Of a stretch of DNA of 35,845 nt, positions 43-8,808 are shown one piece after another. This DNA is from Alphaproteobacteria bacterium (GTDB lineage: Bacteria > Pseudomonadota > Alphaproteobacteria > Caulobacterales > Aquidulcibacteraceae). Position numbers and translations under genes: made by a program. The notes beneath the pieces were generated by a model. It did not search any database, was not told the DNA's origin, and saw only the letters and a list, made by a program, of their open reading frames with translations. Positions within the stretch are counted from its first letter, which is position 1, and every line of letters starts with the position of its first letter. The stretch spans positions 1-35,845 of the forward strand of contig JAGWZH010000021.1 in NCBI GenBank assembly GCA_018971945.1, read 5' to 3'.

Positions 43-1548
43 ATGGCGCCTCCCGACCCTGCCGAAACCATGACCAACAGCCCTGATCAGCCGTCGCGCC
101 ACGGCGGCGGGGCGATGGTGGGGTCTATCTTGGTGACGGCGGGGCGGGGGATCGCGCAGCTCTCCGCGCTGGTTTTGTTGATCATCGCTGCTCGGATCTT
201 GACGCCCGCCGAACTCGCCGCTTTCGGTCTTGTGTCGATTACTGTGATGGTCCTGCAGCACGCTGCAGAGACCGCCTGGTACGAGAAGGTCAGCGGTTGC
301 CGGCGCGATGCGCCAATTCCTCCCGAGTGTTTCTGGGCCGCCATCGCCTGCGGCGTGGCGGCTTCAGTCCTTGGCCTTTGTATCGCTGCGGGCATCCAGA
401 TCGCCACAGGCTCCGCCCATCACGCCCTGGTCATGGCGCTGCTCAGCCTCGTCGGCGCCCTTGGTCCTTTGGTTTGCGTCCAAACCGGCGTCCTGGCCCG
501 CGAAGAACGAATGGTGGGCTTCGGCGCGGCGAGCATTCTCGGCGAGGCGGCAGGGCTCGCCATCGGCGTCTATGGCCTCTTGAACGGCTGGAACATTTTC
601 GCCCTTGCCGCGCATCGTCTGACCACGATCAGCGTCATGGCCCTGGTGGCCTTCAGCCTGGCGCGCTGGCTGCCGGGGTTTCGCTGGCGCGCAGCCGAGG
701 TGCGCGATGTGTTCCGCTTTTATCTCAACCTCTTGAGCGCCCGAGCGGCCACCTTTGCGCATACCCTCGGGTCCGACTATCTGACCGCATTCTACCTGGG
801 CCTGACCGCCACAGGTCATTATCGAGCGGGAAACCGCATTTCGGGCTCCGCCGCAGAGCTGCTGACCGAGCCCGCAAAGATCATGGCGTGGTCCATCCTC
901 CCCAAGACCCGCCGCGGCGAGAACGCAGCGGCGGACGGCCCCAAAGCCGTCGCTTCTTTCATGCTCATCCTTCTGGCCCTCGCCGGGCCGGTCTTTCTGG
1001 GCTTGATGATGGTGGCCGAGCCGCTTGTTCATGTCATTTTGGGGCCTGGATGGGAGCCTGCTATCCTGGTGCTGGCGGTCTCCGCCGCCGCGCGCTTCGC
1101 GTCGGCCCCCCTTGTCGCCGTCGCCTATGGCGTCATGGGCATGGACAACGAGTTCCGTGCCATGACGCGCTTTACCGGTCTCATGCTGATCTCTTCGATC
1201 GGTTTTTTGGCTGCGGTCGGCTGGATGGGCCTTGTCTGGGTGCTCGCGGCTCAAGTGCTGGCGAGCGTTGTGACGGGCGCTGAGGCTCTGCGGCTCTGCG
1301 TCAAATATGGTAAGATTGACCTTTGCGCCATGGCGCCGGACATAGGCCGAATCGCCGTCTCCGTTGCGGTCATGGCGTTGGCCGTCTGGGCCGCTGACCA
1401 GATCTGGACTGGCCAGAGCGAGACTGTCCGCCTCCTCGCCATGGTCGCCGCTGGCGCCCTCGCCTACAGCGCGGCCCTGCTTGTGGCCCGGCCTGAACCC
1501 GCGCAGCTGGCGCTCGCTGCTTTCACCCGACGCGCCGCCCGGCGCTGA
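43..1548 (+). CDS. Wzx-type polysaccharide flippase (oligosaccharide flippase family)
   Basis: This 501-residue protein is almost entirely hydrophobic, with about 12-14 predicted membrane helices beginning near residue 25 after a short polar N-terminus. Length, helix pattern and the N-terminal GSILVTAGRGIAQL-type segment fit the polysaccharide-transporter (MOP/Wzx) superfamily, which flips lipid-linked oligosaccharide repeat units across the inner membrane. It lies directly upstream of a Wzy-like protein, a Wza-like exporter and a Wzc-like kinase, which supports that role. The ATG at 43 has AGGG about eight bases upstream; an in-frame ATG at 70 is an alternative start. The substrate cannot be read from the sequence. 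Confidence 0.8.
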   Translation: MAPPDPAETMTNSPDQPSRHGGGAMVGSILVTAGRGIAQLSALVLLIIAARILTPAELAAFGLVSITVMVLQHAAETAWYEKVSGCRRDAPIPPECFWAAIACGVAASVLGLCIAAGIQIATGSAHHALVMALLSLVGALGPLVCVQTGVLAREERMVGFGAASILGEAAGLAIGVYGLLNGWNIFALAAHRLTTISVMALVAFSLARWLPGFRWRAAEVRDVFRFYLNLLSARAATFAHTLGSDYLTAFYLGLTATGHYRAGNRISGSAAELLTEPAKIMAWSILPKTRRGENAAADGPKAVASFMLILLALAGPVFLGLMMVAEPLVHVILGPGWEPAILVLAVSAAARFASAPLVAVAYGVMGMDNEFRAMTRFTGLMLISSIGFLAAVGWMGLVWVLAAQVLASVVTGAEALRLCVKYGKIDLCAMAPDIGRIAVSVAVMALAVWAADQIWTGQSETVRLLAMVAAGALAYSAALLVARPEPAQLALAAFTRRAARR

Positions 1549-1772: not shown

Positions 1773-3191
1773 ATGACCACGATCTGGTTAGGGGTGGGGT
1801 TGGCGCTGGCGGGGATCGTGATGATCGGTCCGCTCCGTTGGGCCATGGCCATCGCCGCCCTGACCCTGCCCATGGCGGCCACCATGGTGTTCGCCATGGG
1901 CGCCGACCCAATCACCTTGCCGGTTCTTACCACCCTGGCCTTTTGTTTGCGACACGCGACGACCCTGGTGACCAAGCCCCAGCGCGAAATCTTTTTGGGT
2001 CTCATCGCCCGCGAATGGCCATTGGTAGCCCTGGTCGGCTACGCCCTGGTCTCGGGAATGTTGTTCCCTCGTCTGTTCGCGGGCATGACCGTGGTGCCGG
2101 CCCAAGACATGGCCCGCGATGGGTTCGCCATTCTAGGACCCCACCTCGTCAGCGTCCCCCAAATGGGCTATTTTTTAGTTGGCGGGTATTTCTACATTGC
2201 GCTCCGCCAGTCGATTACACGGCTTGGCCCGATGCCCCTGGTCGTCGGCGGCGTGATCCAGACCTTGGCTTTCGGCGGCATGGGCTTCATGCAAGCCATT
2301 CTCGGCCTTGTCGGCGTAGAGTTTCCTGTCGATTGGTTGGTGACCAACACCCATTACGCGCTGCTCGCCAATGTTGAGGCTGCAGGCTTTGTCCGCGTGA
2401 CCGCGGGTTTTGTGGAGGCTTCCTCTTGGGCTGGCTGGGCCGCCGGGCCGTTGGCGTTCTGCTACGCGCTCTTCATCAATCGCGTGGCGGCGCTGCCCGC
2501 TTTGCTGGCGGGCGCCGCCCTTGCCGCCGCCATGCTGTTGTCGACCTCCAGCTCCGCCTATGCAGGATTGTTCGTTTTGTCCGTCATCGCGGTCGCCCAT
2601 GTCCTTATCGATCCAAGTCCTGCGCGGCGGTCGCGCGGGCTGATGGTGTTGGCCGCTGGCGCAGGCGTTTTCGGTGCGGCGGCGGGTCTCATTTTGGCTG
2701 CCGACCCCGGCCAGGGTTTCTTGGGCGACCTGCGCATGATGCTGGAGGAAATGACGATCCGGAAGCAATACTCTCTCTCCGCGATCGAGCGGGGCAAGAT
2801 GGCGCAAGTCGGCTTCCAAGCCGGACTCGACACCTTTGGACTTGGCGCTGGCTTCGGCACGGTCCGCGCTTCGGGCATCATCGCCACATTGTTCGGCGCC
2901 GTCGGCTTGCCAGGACTGATCCTCTTCGCCGTCTTTGTAGCGATGGCGGCGCGGATCCTGATCGTACGCCCTCGAACCCGCCAAGACGCCATCCGTTTCG
3001 CGGCAGGCTTCGCTTTTATGTCAGCCCTCGGCCCACTGGTGGTCTCAGGGGTCGGCCTCGATCTCACCAACATGATTTGGGTGTACGCCGCCATTGCCCG
3101 CACCCACTGGACCTCCAACGCCGAAGCCGCCCGCGGCACGGCGCCCTCAATCCCCCCCTCTGACTCAGCGCCCGCCGAAGCCGGCGCCTGA
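1773..3191 (+). CDS. O-antigen polymerase/ligase-like membrane protein (Wzy-like)
   Basis: This is a 472-residue multi-spanning membrane protein with about 10-12 hydrophobic segments and a larger polar loop in the middle to C-terminal half (around residues 305-365), a layout typical of Wzy polymerases and WaaL ligases. Those enzymes polymerise or transfer lipid-linked sugar units on the periplasmic face of the inner membrane. Primary-sequence identity in this family is low, so the call rests on topology and on its place between the flippase and the export genes. The ATG at 1773 follows a GGAGG-containing ribosome site at about 1756. The C-terminus is polar and proline-rich. A second protein of this general type lies at 9456-10673 on the other strand, so which is polymerase and which is ligase is open. 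Confidence 0.65.
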   Translation: MTTIWLGVGLALAGIVMIGPLRWAMAIAALTLPMAATMVFAMGADPITLPVLTTLAFCLRHATTLVTKPQREIFLGLIAREWPLVALVGYALVSGMLFPRLFAGMTVVPAQDMARDGFAILGPHLVSVPQMGYFLVGGYFYIALRQSITRLGPMPLVVGGVIQTLAFGGMGFMQAILGLVGVEFPVDWLVTNTHYALLANVEAAGFVRVTAGFVEASSWAGWAAGPLAFCYALFINRVAALPALLAGAALAAAMLLSTSSSAYAGLFVLSVIAVAHVLIDPSPARRSRGLMVLAAGAGVFGAAAGLILAADPGQGFLGDLRMMLEEMTIRKQYSLSAIERGKMAQVGFQAGLDTFGLGAGFGTVRASGIIATLFGAVGLPGLILFAVFVAMAARILIVRPRTRQDAIRFAAGFAFMSALGPLVVSGVGLDLTNMIWVYAAIARTHWTSNAEAARGTAPSIPPSDSAPAEAGA

Positions 3192-3215
3192 CAAGAGGAT
3201 CCCAAAGCAGCGCCC

Positions 3216-3962
3216 ATGTTCGGCCGTTCCTCCCGCCTCAAGCCGCAAACGCCTTGAGGGCCAGCGCTTGACGCGGTGGGCGATATCCATGGCCGTCCTC
3301 ACCTTTTGGAGCGTCTTTTATGGGCGATCCGCGAAGACCACGAAGCCAATCCGCCGCGCCTGGAGCCTGCTGCGCTCATTGTGTTTGACGACGATATCGA
3401 TCGGGGCCGTCAGTCCGCCGGGGTTGTCGATCGCCTCGTGTGCGATGAATGGACGCCGTTTCGGCCTCGCTTCTTGAAGGGCCACCACGGAACCGCCTTG
3501 CTGAGCTTCTGGAACGGCCAGAGACCGGCCCTGCCGTTATCCCCTTCGGGAGGCGGAGAGCCTGCGCGCCGAAGGGATCGCCGCACCCTCGCTGCCCGCT
3601 CGCGCGCGCGATTAGCGAGGAACAGCCGCCGCTCTGCACACCCCTCTACCCTTCGATCAAGAGCGGTTTTCCAAAGACTAGGGGTCCTATGCTCGTTACG
3701 GCGACGACGTCTTCGATCATGCGGGGCTCAGACCGGGCGAACCTCTGCAGGTCCAGACCGAACGAGACATGCAGCCCATTGGCGAGCCCGTCTGAAAGGC
3801 GCGCTACCCGTTCCCCTTCACAATTGTGCACGGTCATACCCCGTTGACGCCGCCGACGCGAAACACGCCCCTATCGCTCTCGATACGGGCGCATTTGTCA
3901 CCGACCGATTGAGTGCTGTTCGCCTGGAAGGGGAAAACGCGAGCTTTTTGAACACGCGAGGC
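3216..3962 (+). pseudogene. Decayed serine/threonine-type metallophosphatase
   Basis: Pieces of one calcineurin-like (PPP-type) metallophosphatase lie in order but in different frames. An ATG at 3216, preceded by AGAGGA, opens a frame stopped by TGA at 3255-3257. The same frame continues with VGDIHGR near 3276, then IDRG after a damaged GD motif (VFDDDIDRG where the family has LGDxxDRG), then KGHHG where the family has KGNHE. The homology then changes frame and continues in frame 1 with ESLRAEGIAAPS, a TAG at 3613, a TAG at 3679, HAGLRPGEPLQ, a TGA at 3793 and IVHGHTP near 3833. It returns to frame 0 for ALDTGAFVTDRLSAVRLEGE. At least three stops, at least two frameshifts and altered metal ligands show a dead gene. 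It sits between a Wzy-like and a Wza-like gene; related phosphatases elsewhere accompany polysaccharide genes. The 3' end is approximate. Confidence 0.85.
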
Positions 3963-4035
3963 GTTGGCGTGGGCAAATCTGGAAGTAAGGTGTCAAGCGG
4001 GAGGCTGACAGCGACGCTCAAGGGGTGGTTCCGCA

Positions 4036-5142
4036 ATGGACATGAAGACCGACCATACCGACCCAATCTGGATGACCGCGCACCGCGGCTTTGTAATGGC
4101 CTTGTCTGCGGTTTTGGTTTTCCTGACGATGATGTCTTGGGCCAGCGCCCAGCAGACCCGACCTCAATGGCGAGGCTGGCAGGCTACGCAGACCCAGGAG
4201 GATCGCGTGGGCGAACTGCCATCGCCCCCCGCTTCGGACACAGCCTCTTCGGCCTCACCCGCCTTGGCCCCACCCGCCTTGGCCCCACCCCCCTTGGCCC
4301 CACCCGCCTTGGCCCCACCCCCCTTGGCCCCACCCCCCTTGGCCCCACCCCCCTTGGCCTCCGCCCGGGAAGGCGCGGCGAACGGCGCGCTCGTGAGTGC
4401 CGCTGGAAGTCCCGATCCCGCCCTACAATCGCCCCCCATGGTCGAGCCGTCGCGCTTCCAGCCCGGGGAATATGTCCTCGGCGTTGGCGACCGTCTCCGC
4501 ATCATTGTCTTCGGCGAAGAGGATTTGTCGGGCGAGTTCGTGGTCGACTCCACTGGCCGAGTTTCGTTTCCTTTGATCGGCGAAATTCCCGCCGCCCTGT
4601 CCTCGGTCAGCGAGTTCCAATCTCGGGTCGAAGAGGCCTTGCGCGAAGGCTATCTCAACGATCCGCGGGTCAGCGCCGAGGTGTTAAACTTCAGACCGTT
4701 CTACATCTTGGGCGAGGTTCAGCGGCCTGGGGAGTACCCATTCAATAACGGTTTGACCGTGCTGAACGCGGTGGCGACTGCTGGCGGCTTCACCCCGCTC
4801 GCCAACCAAACACGCGTCTTCATCAAACCTGCAGGCGAGGGGCGCGAGGAGGAAATCGCACTTTCACCGGCCACTCCTGTGGCGCCGGGCGACACTATTC
4901 GCATTGGCAAAGGCGCTTTCTATATACTCGGCGAGGTTACGCGCCCTGGTGAGTACCCCTTCAGCGAAGGCATGACCGTGTTGAACGCGGTCGCCACTGC
5001 GGGCGGCTTCACCTACCGCGCCAACCAGGGGCGCGTTTTCATCCAAAGAGAAGGCGCCGACCGCGAGCAGACCCTACGCTTGGAGCCTAATCTGCGTATC
5101 GAAGCGGGCGACACGATCCGGATCGGGGAGCGTTTCTTCTAA
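4036..5142 (+). CDS. Wza-type polysaccharide export protein with two SLBB domains
   Basis: This 368-residue protein has an N-terminal polar stretch, a hydrophobic signal segment (about residues 20-38, ending ASA-QQ), and a proline/alanine linker of seven five-residue repeats (75-109). A Poly_export domain follows from about 145 (EYVLGVGDRLRI, then GEEDLSGEF), and then two SLBB domains at 222-291 and 295-364. Wza-type proteins form the periplasm-to-outer-membrane channel for capsule, holdfast or exopolysaccharide. No lipobox Cys is visible after the signal, unlike E. coli Wza, but many alphaproteobacterial homologues also lack it. The next genes encode an outer-membrane barrel and the Wzc-like partner, matching an HfsD-HfsA-like arrangement. 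The two SLBB copies are 47/70 identical, suggesting recent internal duplication. Confidence 0.9.
   Translation: MDMKTDHTDPIWMTAHRGFVMALSAVLVFLTMMSWASAQQTRPQWRGWQATQTQEDRVGELPSPPASDTASSASPALAPPALAPPPLAPPALAPPPLAPPPLAPPPLASAREGAANGALVSAAGSPDPALQSPPMVEPSRFQPGEYVLGVGDRLRIIVFGEEDLSGEFVVDSTGRVSFPLIGEIPAALSSVSEFQSRVEEALREGYLNDPRVSAEVLNFRPFYILGEVQRPGEYPFNNGLTVLNAVATAGGFTPLANQTRVFIKPAGEGREEEIALSPATPVAPGDTIRIGKGAFYILGEVTRPGEYPFSEGMTVLNAVATAGGFTYRANQGRVFIQREGADREQTLRLEPNLRIEAGDTIRIGERFF
4258..4362 (+). repeat. Seven tandem 15-bp units coding a Pro-Ala-Leu linker
   Basis: Seven consecutive 15-base units of the form CCC-SCC-TTG-GCC-CCA encode P(A/P)LAP repeats, the last ending in Ser. Units differ almost only at one base, which switches an Ala codon to a Pro codon. 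The array lies between the signal segment and the export domain of the Wza-like protein and probably forms an extended, flexible linker. Such in-frame arrays can gain or lose units by slippage without breaking the frame. Confidence 0.95.
4699..5127 (+). repeat. Tandem duplication of an SLBB-coding segment (2 x 210 bp)
   Basis: Bases 4699-4908 and 4918-5127 encode two 70-residue SLBB copies separated by three residues. Hand alignment without gaps gives 47 of 70 identical residues, including an identical run VLNAVATAGGF and identical GDTIRIG ends. The similarity is also clear at the DNA level (for example around GAACGCGGT). The most divergent part is the surface strand around residues 50-60 of each copy. 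Confidence 0.9.
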
Positions 5143-5284: not shown

Positions 5285-6559
5285 ATGAAACGCCTTTTGC
5301 TTCTGGCCGCGAGCGTGGCCGCTCTTAATCTGGCCATGGCGCCGTCTGGTTTCGCGCAGGAAGCGTCCCCAGGGTTCGATCGCGGCCGCAACCAGTCTGT
5401 GAACGAGCGTCCCCGCCCCGAGTTCGACCCCATGGGTGTGCAGTTTCGCGCCTGGATGCTGCGCCCTGAATTGGTCGCTGAGGTGGGACAAACAAACAAT
5501 GTCTTTGCTGAAGACAGCAATGAAGACTCCGATACCTATATCAGCCTGCGTCCGCGTTTGCAGGGCGAGACCACGTGGTCGCGACACGGCGCGCGCTTTG
5601 CTGTCGGCGCGGAGCGCGCGGCCTTCAACGACACGACCAATAACAACGAGTTTTCGCCCTATGCCGAAGGCGAGCTCAGGTTGGACATCGGCCGCGATGG
5701 CGCAATTTCGGTTGGCGGTCGCAGAGCCAATGACAGCGAGGGCAGGACCTCGCCCGATCAACCTGCCGCGGCTGAATCGCCGGTGGAGTTTGATGTGAAC
5801 GAGGTGTCCGTGGCGGCCCGCTACACCTTCAATCGCGTCCGAGTGAGCGCGCGCGCCGCGGCCCGCGATCTTGATTTCCAGGACGCGAAGACCCCGGGCG
5901 GCGTGACCCTGGACCAGGACGATCGAGACCGGACCGAACGCGAGTTCTCGGTACGCGGAGAATGGGCCCTCTCTCCGAGCGTCGCCCTTGTCGCTGAAGC
6001 CGGAGCCAATACGCGGGAATATGATCTCAATCCGCCAGCAGTGGCGGTCAATCGTGAATCCAATGGGCGCTCTTACGCGGTCGGCGCGAATTTCGATGTG
6101 ACACGGCTAGCCCGCGGCGAAGTGACCGTGGGCTATCTCGAGCAGGAATTCAAAGACGTCTCTATCGGAGACATCAATGGCCTCGCTCTCAACGCCCGCC
6201 TCGACTGGTTCCCTACGGACCGCACCACTGTGGGCTTCACCGCGAACCGCAGCATCGCCGAAACCGGCCTGACGACGACGGCAGGCGCCGAGCAAAGCAC
6301 GCTCAGCGTACGTGTGGACCATGAATTGAGGCGCAATGTCATCGTCTCGGCCGCACTGTCCGGTGGGTCCCGCGACTACCAAGGCATAGATCGCCAGGAT
6401 GATTTGCGCCGAGGCGAACTCAGCGTTCGCTATCTCGTCAATCGCCGGGCTGAACTGCGCGCGGGCTATGTCGTGGAAAGCCAATCCTCAGGCGGGGCCG
6501 CCCGTGATCGGGACTTCGATGTCGGGACAGGTTTTGTCGCTCTCGCGTTGAGATTGTGA
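5285..6559 (+). CDS. Outer-membrane beta-barrel protein of the polysaccharide locus
   Basis: The ATG at 5285 follows GGGGAA and opens a clear signal peptide (MKRLLLLAASVAALNLAMAP..., cleaved near FAQ-EA), so this start is preferred to an upstream in-frame one at 5216. The mature 400-residue part is rich in alternating polar/hydrophobic stretches with aromatic ends and no hydrophobic helices, and it ends in the beta-strand-like FVALALRL, typical of outer-membrane barrels. It resembles the beta-barrel family (BBP2-like) often found beside polysaccharide export genes in alphaproteobacteria. With its position between wza-like and wzc-like genes, a role in passage or anchoring of the polymer at the outer membrane is inferred, not shown. 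Confidence 0.8.
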   Translation: MKRLLLLAASVAALNLAMAPSGFAQEASPGFDRGRNQSVNERPRPEFDPMGVQFRAWMLRPELVAEVGQTNNVFAEDSNEDSDTYISLRPRLQGETTWSRHGARFAVGAERAAFNDTTNNNEFSPYAEGELRLDIGRDGAISVGGRRANDSEGRTSPDQPAAAESPVEFDVNEVSVAARYTFNRVRVSARAAARDLDFQDAKTPGGVTLDQDDRDRTEREFSVRGEWALSPSVALVAEAGANTREYDLNPPAVAVNRESNGRSYAVGANFDVTRLARGEVTVGYLEQEFKDVSIGDINGLALNARLDWFPTDRTTVGFTANRSIAETGLTTTAGAEQSTLSVRVDHELRRNVIVSAALSGGSRDYQGIDRQDDLRRGELSVRYLVNRRAELRAGYVVESQSSGGAARDRDFDVGTGFVALALRL

Positions 6560-6609: not shown

Positions 6610-8808
6610 ATGGCCGACACAGGCGCACGCAGTTTCGACCTGACTGAGCCCTTGTCTCTGGGAGACCAGAACGGCGAGGACAGCGGCGGCCTGAGGCGGA
6701 TCATCGAGGCGTTTCAACGTCGCCTTTGGGTGTTCCTGCTGATCGCCGGAGCGACCCTTTTCGTCGTGTTGCTTTTTACGCTCACCGCGACCCGTCAATA
6801 TACCGCCACCGCCGATGTGCAGCTCGACGTGCGCAACACCCAACTCGTCGAACGCAATATGGAGGTCTTCGAGGGCCTCACCACCGAAAGCGTCATGATC
6901 GACACGGAAACGGAAGTCATGCGCTCGGCCGCACTCGCCGCCAGGGTGGTTGATGCGCTGAACTTGACCCAAGACCCTGCTTTCGCCCCGATCGGCGGGC
7001 CAAGCCTTGGACAACGTGTGCAGAATTTTTTCTTCGGCGGCGGCGAAAGGATGCAGGACGAAGAAGCGATCCGCGCCGTCACCATAGAGAACCTGCGTGA
7101 GCATGTGGACATTCGTCGTCACGGCATGACCTTGATCATCCGTGTTTCCGCCACTTTGCCGGACGCCGCCCGCGCCGCCGAAGTGGCCAATGCGTTTGCT
7201 GAGAATTACCTCACAATGCAGTTGGAAACGAAATACGAGACGATCCGCGCCGCCAACGAATTCATCGCCACCCGCCTCGCGGTCCTGCGCGAAGAAGTGT
7301 TGGAAAAAGAAAGATTGGTGGAGGAGGAACGCGCCCGGGCTGGTCTCCTGTCCGCCGAGGGCGCCACGCTCACAGAGCAAGCGATGACCGGCCTCCAGGC
7401 CGAAGTCGGTCGCGCCGAGGCTGATCTAGCGGCCGCCCAGGCCCGCCTCCAAGGCGTACAGGCGGGCGAAACGTCGGCCGAAGCTTTGGGCAGCGCGGTG
7501 GTGGGCAATCTCCGCGCCCAACAGGCCGAGCTCGCCCGCCAACGTGCGGTGCTCTCCAACCGCTACGGCGCCCGTCACCCCGAGATGCAGCGGGTCGAGC
7601 GCGAGATAGCTGATCTGGACGCACGGATCGCAGAGGAGATCGCCCGTATCACAGAAAATCTTCGCACCGAGGTGCGGATCGCCCAGCAAAGGCTCAATTC
7701 GATCCGCGGAAACATCAATAATCAGCAGACCTCACTGGTTCGCAATAACCGCGACTCCGTGCGCCTCCGTGATTTGGAGCGCGACGCCGACGCCAGCCGC
7801 ACCACCTATGAAGGGTTCCTCGCTCGCTTCAGGCAGGTTGCTGAGACCAGCGGCATCGAGCGGCCCGACGCCCGGGTGATTTCCCAAGCCGCACCACCGC
7901 TTGGTCCTTCCACGCCCAACACCAGGCTGAATCTCCTGATGGGCGTAATCCTCGGCGCAGCCTTGGGCGCTGTCGGGGTGTTTCTGGTCGAGGCGCTCGA
8001 GCAATCCTTGCGGACCCCGGAAGACGTGAAGGCGCGGCTGGGCCTGCCATGGGTCGGCTCAGTGCCTTTTCTCGATCGCCGGGCGCGTACGATCGACGGC
8101 GAGCTTTTGTCGCCCGAAGATTTCGTCGTCAAACGCCCGTTGTCCGCTTTCGGAGAAGCCTTGCGAACCATCCGCGCGAGCGTGTTTTTCGCTAATCCGG
8201 ATCGACGGGTCAAAGTGCTTGCAGTCACCTCCGCTCTGCCTGACGAAGGAAAAACGACCCTTTCAATCGGCCTTGCGCGGATCTCCGCCCTGGCAGGATC
8301 AAAGACAGTGCTTGTCGATTGCGACCTGCGGCGCCGCTCAGCCACGCATTCCTTGGGCCTTGAAGCCGAGAAGGGCCTCACCGAGGTTCTGTTCCGGACA
8401 GCGACCCTTAATGAGGTGATTCAAAAAGACCCCTCCACGGGGGTCGACGTGGTGCCTCTCGCCCAAGCCGAATTTACGCCGCGCGATCTTTTTGGCTCCG
8501 AGGCCATGCGGTCCCTGCTAGACGCGCTCCGCGCCCGCTATGACGTGATCATTCTGGACAACGCCCCGGTCATGCCGATCGCCGACTCCCGTGTTCTGGC
8601 GGGGCAGGCGGACGCGGTCCTCCTCGTCGCCCGTTGGGGCAGCACCCCAGCCTCCATTGTGCGCGCCGCCGCCGAGCGCATCCGAGCCCATGGCGGCCGG
8701 ATCAGCGGCGTTGTGCTGGAAGCGGTGGAGTCCGGCCTCGTTTCCCGGCTTCTCTATGATAAAAACGATTACTACTCCGAACTCTACCACACCTATTATA
8801 TCAGCTGA
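6610..8808 (+). CDS. Wzc-like polysaccharide co-polymerase / tyrosine autokinase
   Basis: This is a 732-residue protein. Residues about 35-60 are the first membrane helix, followed by a Wzz domain, a long coiled-coil periplasmic part with a GNVR-type segment (about 230-430), and a second helix near 440-460. A BY-kinase domain follows: Walker A at about 541-551 (LPDEGKTT), Walker A' near 567 (VLVDCDLRR) and Walker B near 646 (VIILDNAPV). The C-terminus carries a tyrosine cluster (six Tyr in the last 18 residues, YYSELYHTYY), the usual autophosphorylation site. It controls chain length and export with the Wza partner. The ATG at 6610 follows a GGAGGAGG stretch near 6588 and a closer GGAG at about 6598. 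Kinase and co-polymerase domains are in one polypeptide. Confidence 0.93.
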   Translation: MADTGARSFDLTEPLSLGDQNGEDSGGLRRIIEAFQRRLWVFLLIAGATLFVVLLFTLTATRQYTATADVQLDVRNTQLVERNMEVFEGLTTESVMIDTETEVMRSAALAARVVDALNLTQDPAFAPIGGPSLGQRVQNFFFGGGERMQDEEAIRAVTIENLREHVDIRRHGMTLIIRVSATLPDAARAAEVANAFAENYLTMQLETKYETIRAANEFIATRLAVLREEVLEKERLVEEERARAGLLSAEGATLTEQAMTGLQAEVGRAEADLAAAQARLQGVQAGETSAEALGSAVVGNLRAQQAELARQRAVLSNRYGARHPEMQRVEREIADLDARIAEEIARITENLRTEVRIAQQRLNSIRGNINNQQTSLVRNNRDSVRLRDLERDADASRTTYEGFLARFRQVAETSGIERPDARVISQAAPPLGPSTPNTRLNLLMGVILGAALGAVGVFLVEALEQSLRTPEDVKARLGLPWVGSVPFLDRRARTIDGELLSPEDFVVKRPLSAFGEALRTIRASVFFANPDRRVKVLAVTSALPDEGKTTLSIGLARISALAGSKTVLVDCDLRRRSATHSLGLEAEKGLTEVLFRTATLNEVIQKDPSTGVDVVPLAQAEFTPRDLFGSEAMRSLLDALRARYDVIILDNAPVMPIADSRVLAGQADAVLLVARWGSTPASIVRAAAERIRAHGGRISGVVLEAVESGLVSRLLYDKNDYYSELYHTYYIS

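Follow-up and report, generated by a model that had tools for sequence, protein, structure and literature searches.

A phosphatase encoded next to a tyrosine kinase is usually regarded as its necessary counterpart in capsule and exopolysaccharide export. In the 35,845-nucleotide stretch of alphaproteobacterial DNA analyzed here (hereafter the window), an earlier note made from the sequence alone had described a dead metallophosphatase gene inside an otherwise whole polysaccharide export operon. The locus raises the questions of whether the gene is really dead, whether it was lost in this strain only, and whether export machinery of this type can do without the phosphatase reaction.

A broken phosphatase gene in an export operon

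The operon runs in the order Wzx-type flippase, multi-TM-looking protein, phosphatase remnant, wza-type exporter, beta-barrel protein and Wzc-type kinase, with the remnant directly upstream of the wza-type gene (Table 1). The multi-TM-looking protein gave no Pfam or NCBIfam match. When full-length relatives from export loci of other genomes were used as tblastn queries, they aligned to the remnant in frame 3, frame 1 and again frame 3, in fixed order and with E values down to 1e-29, over about 3219-3560, 3538-3864 and 3840-3974, respectively. Counterparts of the motifs GDxHG, GDxxDRG, GNH(E/D), HAG and GHT occur in this order across two frames, with GHHG standing for GNHE and DDDIDRG for GDxxDRG, in agreement with the claim that the phosphatase motifs are correctly ordered but spread over more than one frame. 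A profile made from 16 full-length relatives scored 95.8 and 63.3 bits on two plus-strand frames of the remnant, while the best score among 300 dinucleotide-preserving shuffles, 248 of which gave any row, was 5.5 bits, indicating that the motifs are not due to chance. Note that the remnant had no PF00149 match at E 0.001, a cut-off passed by both relatives tested (2/2) and by the paralogue in the same genome; the Pfam search of this genome gave six other places.

Table 1. Features of the export operon, of the phosphatase remnant and of the altered sister-genus copies. Coordinates are window positions except in the last row, where they refer to the named loci.
Feature	Position	Strand	Evidence
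Wzx-type flippase	43..1548	+	Pfam PF13440
Multi-TM-looking protein, candidate Wzy-like polymerase (name inferred)	1773..3191	+	tblastn, 41% identity; upstream of the phosphatase in G007 too
Remnant of PPP-type (calcineurin-like) phosphatase gene, whole extent	3216..3959	+	tblastn with syntenic relatives; profile score vs shuffles
ATG followed by in-frame stop at 3255-3257 (codon 14)	3216..3257	+	translation
N-terminal piece, frame 3: GDIHG, DDDIDRG, KGHHG	3258..3536	+	tblastn, translation
Middle piece, frame 1: HAGLRPG, IVHGHTP; stops at 3613, 3679, 3793	3556..3840	+	tblastn, translation
C-terminal piece, frame 3: LDTGAFVTDRLSAVRLEG	3867..3959	+	tblastn, translation
wza-type polysaccharide export protein (Poly_export, SLBB)	4036..5142	+	Pfam PF02563, PF10531
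Outer-membrane beta-barrel protein (BBP2_2)	5285..6559	+	Pfam PF10082, profile 1-368 of 378 matched
Wzc-type chain-length protein and tyrosine autokinase, Walker motifs, C-terminal Tyr cluster	6610..8808	+	Pfam, NCBIfam, motif table
Altered sister-genus phosphatases	L038:8113-8871, L040:8477-9232, L041:8347-9204		residue table

Four in-frame stops and at least two net frame changes lie within less than 750 bases, and the remnant holds no single open reading frame able to give an enzyme. On translation, the stops were found exactly at the four positions that had been claimed (3255, 3613, 3679 and 3793). The start codon that had been called intact together with its ribosome site is there (ATG at 3216), whereas the ribosome site is uncertain: 17 bases separate AAGAGG (3193-3198) from the ATG, and the only sequence at the usual spacing is a weak AAAG (3204-3207). 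For the active site, eight residues were numbered by lambda phosphatase through an alignment with 1g5b (D20, H22, D49, R53, N75, H76, H139 and H186), which we take to be metal ligands, with R53 for phosphate. The metal-ligand roles agree with the description of PssZ (PMC6071215). Seven of the eight are as in active relatives and the remaining one, N75 (the Asn of GNH), is His, so that the earlier claim of changed metal-ligand motifs holds for one ligand; neighboring positions are also altered (GDY to DDD, and E after GNH to G). Positions 3216-3959 are a pseudogene of a PPP-type protein phosphatase. Such a remnant of a known family is unremarkable in itself, and this gene can almost certainly be counted as dead.

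The same DNA also contains a frame-3 ORF of 490 aa (3276-4748) that runs through the remnant into wza, and it might be read as a real, translated new protein made of both ends of the old phosphatase and a new middle. The frame indeed has no stop between 3258 and 4745 and includes both phosphatase ends; however, it overlaps wza by ~700 bases in another frame, the phosphatase middle is gone together with two of the eight active-site residues, the first 244 residues had no Pfam match better than E 1.2 when scanned, and long frames often arise by chance in this GC-rich window. We give this explanation hardly any credit and keep to a dead gene.

The export genes beside the remnant are uninterrupted, as had been claimed. 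From stop to stop, the wza frame encodes 377 aa (296-392 in four relatives), the beta-barrel frame 464 aa (441-530 in five relatives; below four of them, with the Pfam profile covered almost end to end) and the wzc frame 747 aa (747-767 in five relatives). The kinase retains DEGKTT, VDCDLRR, the Walker B stretch and six tyrosines in its last 30 residues, features also retained in the genomes G007, G008, G013, G015 and G020. These uninterrupted neighbors bear on whether the gene is in fact intact and its lesions arose in assembly or sequencing. The genome is a draft of 233 contigs, each lesion could in principle be such an error, and in a genome of the same family (G068) both the phosphatase and the kinase are frame-split with the scanned motifs intact, which looks like errors of this kind. 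However, the crowding of the stops and frame changes in the remnant, the changed metal ligand and an identity lowered in all three pieces, next to flanking genes without interruption, make errors a very improbable source of the lesions, and we continue with true decay of the gene.

Two minor observations concern the rest of the window. A 15-base tandem unit in 7.3 copies (4251-4359) gives the N-terminal part of the wza protein a Pro-rich stretch, and the wza frames of near relatives are shorter in three of the four compared. Further pseudogenes were sought among ten other unlabelled window ORFs by Pfam scan; eight had no match at E 0.01 and two matched (TrcR, SnoaL-like), with nothing telling among them.

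Intact copies in relatives and linkage to export genes

The translated search for an intact gene at the same place was answered by G007, in which the genes from the multi-TM-looking one through to the kinase are arranged as in the window and the phosphatase is uninterrupted, lying 99 bases from wza as counted between stop-to-stop frames. Full-length copies were also found in G008, G013, G015 and G020. The gene is thus uninterrupted at the same place in relatives and disrupted in the window, and homology, the shuffle control and the intact syntenic orthologue together confirm a metallophosphatase pseudogene in a polysaccharide export operon; the possibility raised in the earlier note, that no relative has a homologue at this position, is contradicted by G007, among others. 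Loss "in this strain" holds as far as the loss is concerned, with weaker support for strain-level timing, as the searched set contained no other genome of the window's genus.

Among the 19 order-level loci fetched for their wza relative, the phosphatase lies within the stretch in 14 and is missing in L039, L043, L044, L053 and L056; it is present in 4/4 Robiginitomaculum loci and in 0/2 more distant loci. Conversely, wza or wzc lies within 5 kb in 21 of the 34 loci fetched because of the phosphatase, and in a class-wide sample, scanned with profiles made from the order, in 26 of the 79 loci longer than 5 kb. The linkage between phosphatase and export genes is strong close to the window and falls off further away, and export may not be the sole setting of this phosphatase family. 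In G013 (L093:7838-12631), the beta-barrel and kinase genes follow directly after the phosphatase with no wza between. The phosphatase ORFs of G068 and G069 (L123, L125) each fall into two frames, although the scanned motifs are intact; they were considered as further cases of decay and set aside, assembly error being likelier given the intact motifs and the kinase ORF of G068, which is split too.

A paralogue search in the window's own genome, likewise proposed earlier, gave a distant paralogue only (contig C184, frame open, at the contig end). No second copy of the remnant-type phosphatase was found in the draft genome, and replacement by such a copy was accordingly rejected. The genome also has one LMW tyrosine phosphatase, on contig C19; replacement by an extra enzyme of this type was rejected as well, because each of the 60 family genomes carries one or more, the window's a single one, which makes no pattern.

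Divergence and age of the remnant

Identity between the remnant and the G007 phosphatase is 43.6% over 211 codons. The same two genomes share 58.6% identity in wza and 63.8% in wzc, and second-codon-position differences are 0.351 (remnant), 0.255 (wza) and 0.202 (wzc). The fast-evolving beta-barrel gene of the same pair (40.8%) is as diverged as the remnant, and low identity alone therefore proves nothing; it is supporting rather than decisive. In a quick tree, the branch of the remnant (2.31) is four times that of the G007 phosphatase (0.58), while the kinase branches of the two genomes are 0.37 (window) and 0.27 (G007).

Base composition by codon position is 0.70/0.50/0.68 in the remnant pieces against a mean of 0.68/0.49/0.74 in the neighbors, with the third-position value of the remnant just below the lowest of 138 neighbor windows (0.683). 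Since this is still nearly coding-like, the death of the gene is not very old. In 300 runs of a neutral simulation, four or more stops appeared in 3% at 0.1 and in 10% at 0.2 changes per site; with so few runs reaching this number, the age of the loss is poorly fixed and we give no date.

Full-length copies without catalytic residues in a sister genus

New here are full-length phosphatase copies that lack key catalytic residues in a sister genus (G008, G015 and G020). Their genes encode 252-286 aa from stop to stop and adjoin wza. Among the 52 order-level loci covering the sites, N75 is Asn in 49 and Lys in three, namely the operon copies of this one genus (for G015, the copy in the operon); H186 is His in 50 and Asn in two (G015 and G020); and R53 is Arg in 46, Cys in two (G015 and G020), Lys in three and Gly in one. 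The other five active-site residues are constant in 52/52. At class level, where 90 rows (89 distinct, one genome being entered twice, from 89 of 120 listed places) were compared, all eight residues are present in 89/90 and one row has His for N75. As a separate observation, this class copy (G268, L170:4905-5720) is full length and has GHHE for GNHE, which repeats the Asn-to-His change of the window remnant; the position is therefore not absolutely fixed. Changes at the DRG motif were also seen elsewhere: DKG in three copies of genus g6 (L100:7986-8765, L101:8017-8796 and L102:7989-8771) and DGG in one copy of G074 (L126:6923-7822).

The dN/dS values of the three sister-genus pairs are 0.166, 0.193 and 0.253, close to those for wza (0.196-0.298) and wzc (0.171-0.222) of the same genomes; note that dS is near 1 in these pairs, so the figures are rough. 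Judged from these ratios, the sister-genus phosphatase is under purifying selection, and because Lys is common to all three copies, the simplest reading is that they were under constraint once the change had occurred. Full length, lost catalytic residues and purifying selection occur together in these copies, which makes them candidate pseudophosphatases. G015 has a second, unaltered phosphatase copy elsewhere (L121), and G008 and G020 have distant matches only besides the operon copy.

The possible retained pseudophosphatase of the sister genus is of more interest than the pseudogene of the window. One reading, which we put forward tentatively at somewhat less than even odds, is that the sister-genus phosphatase would be a conserved non-catalytic protein of the export operon acting by binding, e.g., by capping the tyrosine tail of Wzc, and that the window would represent full decay reached independently. 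If true, this would be a bacterial pseudophosphatase regulator of polymer export.

Apparent independence of the two losses

In a kinase tree of 15 of the 42 collected rows, the window pairs with G007 (support 100/99), a genome whose copy looks active, and the altered genus is placed separately (100/100). A tree in which the window was forced together with the altered genus was rejected (AU p 0.00143; post hoc, as the grouping was chosen after an earlier tree), and a single ancestral loss common to the window and the sister genus was rejected on this ground. The phosphatase tree does not place the remnant, which sits on a long branch at an open fork, and the reading of independence takes the kinase tree as the operon tree. 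With the kinase tree splitting the window from the altered genus, the decay in the window and the residue loss in the sister genus are most simply two events, and the latter was apparently independent of the former.

This pattern points to an operon type that can do without catalysis, rather than to the rewiring of one strain. In one operon type, catalytic function was seemingly lost twice with the kinase retained, and the neighboring genera form a graded series of active-looking (G007, G013), altered but retained (G008, G015, G020) and broken (window) copies. It offers a natural test of whether phosphatase activity, or the mere presence of the protein, matters to export.

The kinase motifs and the Tyr tail are conserved both in the genome with the dead phosphatase and in those whose copies have lost catalytic residues. 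Together with the apparently independent catalytic loss in the sister genus, this would also fit an adaptive loss, in which the kinase without its phosphatase stays phosphorylated and polymer length or amount changes. However, relaxed constraint accounts equally well for the window, other phosphatases are present in the genome, and mutation of pssZ in Rhizobium abolished polymer production according to PMC6071215, so loss need not help export. We therefore consider adaptive loss unlikely and prefer simple dispensability of catalysis.

Proposed function and comparison with known systems

It is plausible, as suggested earlier, that the intact enzyme may have counteracted the kinase or had a precursor as its substrate. 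The best solved relative is RLPH2 (5vjv), with a profile E value of 1.5e-21 and, in a fold search with the model of a Robiginitomaculum relative, an E value of 5.5e-7; these tests used relatives and not the remnant, and the predicted structure, with a mean pLDDT of 66 (four sequences), is a low-confidence one and serves as a lead only. Tyrosine-specific cold-active phosphatases also match by profile (E 3e-10) and weakly by fold (E 0.01), and further profile matches are lambda phosphatase, metallophosphoesterase 4j6o and Ap4A hydrolases. RLPH2 is described as a plant tyrosine phosphatase in PMC12817480, and with such a nearest solved relative and the frequent tyrosine autokinase neighbor, the tyrosine tail of the kinase would be the likeliest substrate; note that, according to PMC535813, the specificity of such PPP enzymes is not predictable without experiment.

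As a whole, we hold it highly probable that the window carries a pseudogene of an RLPH-related PPP phosphatase beside uninterrupted export genes, with apparently independent residue loss in a sister genus, and that the intact enzyme would dephosphorylate the export machinery. It would remove phosphate from an export protein, most likely from the tyrosine tail of the neighboring Wzc-type kinase, and in this operon lineage the step would have become dispensable; the C184 paralogue or the LMW phosphatase on C19 may perhaps cover it.

The Wzb-type LMW tyrosine phosphatases are similar to the proposed enzyme in that they would take phosphate from a Wzc-type kinase beside wza, but they have another fold and chemistry than the PPP type. 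The three ORFs over the remnant had no LMWPc domain match at E up to 10 (HMMER filters drop most weak matches), and the one LMW match of the genome lies elsewhere.

PssZ of Rhizobium leguminosarum, a 263-aa PPP-type phosphatase from an exopolysaccharide cluster with GDYVDRG, GNHD and a two-metal site, is similar by description, the basis on which it was compared here, rather than by sequence (PMC6071215, accessible part). It differs in that a stand-alone gene is reported, with loss of polymer production on mutation, whereas here the gene is dead in the window, or stripped of residues in the sister genus, and the export genes are uninterrupted; in the same text its authors suggest several possible targets and demonstrate none. 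A PssZ-like first motif (SDxHG) was not found in the 90 class rows and the L037 reference. The literature searched, as far as its text was accessible, held no report of this pseudogene or of a pseudophosphatase in a polysaccharide operon, which is no proof of absence.

Finally, the plant Rhilph group, with RLPH2 as the closest solved structure to this phosphatase family, has alphaproteobacterial PPPs as its nearest relatives according to the accessible part of PMC535813, where the word exopolysaccharide does not occur. There, the inserts of the alphaproteobacterial enzymes are described as much shorter than the plant ones. The insert motif LXXAXPXXH, as defined in the same part of that paper, is present in strict form in 13 of the 55 rows compared here (52 loci, two of them in two pieces, and the paralogue of the window's genome) and in 16 of 91 class rows including the reference.
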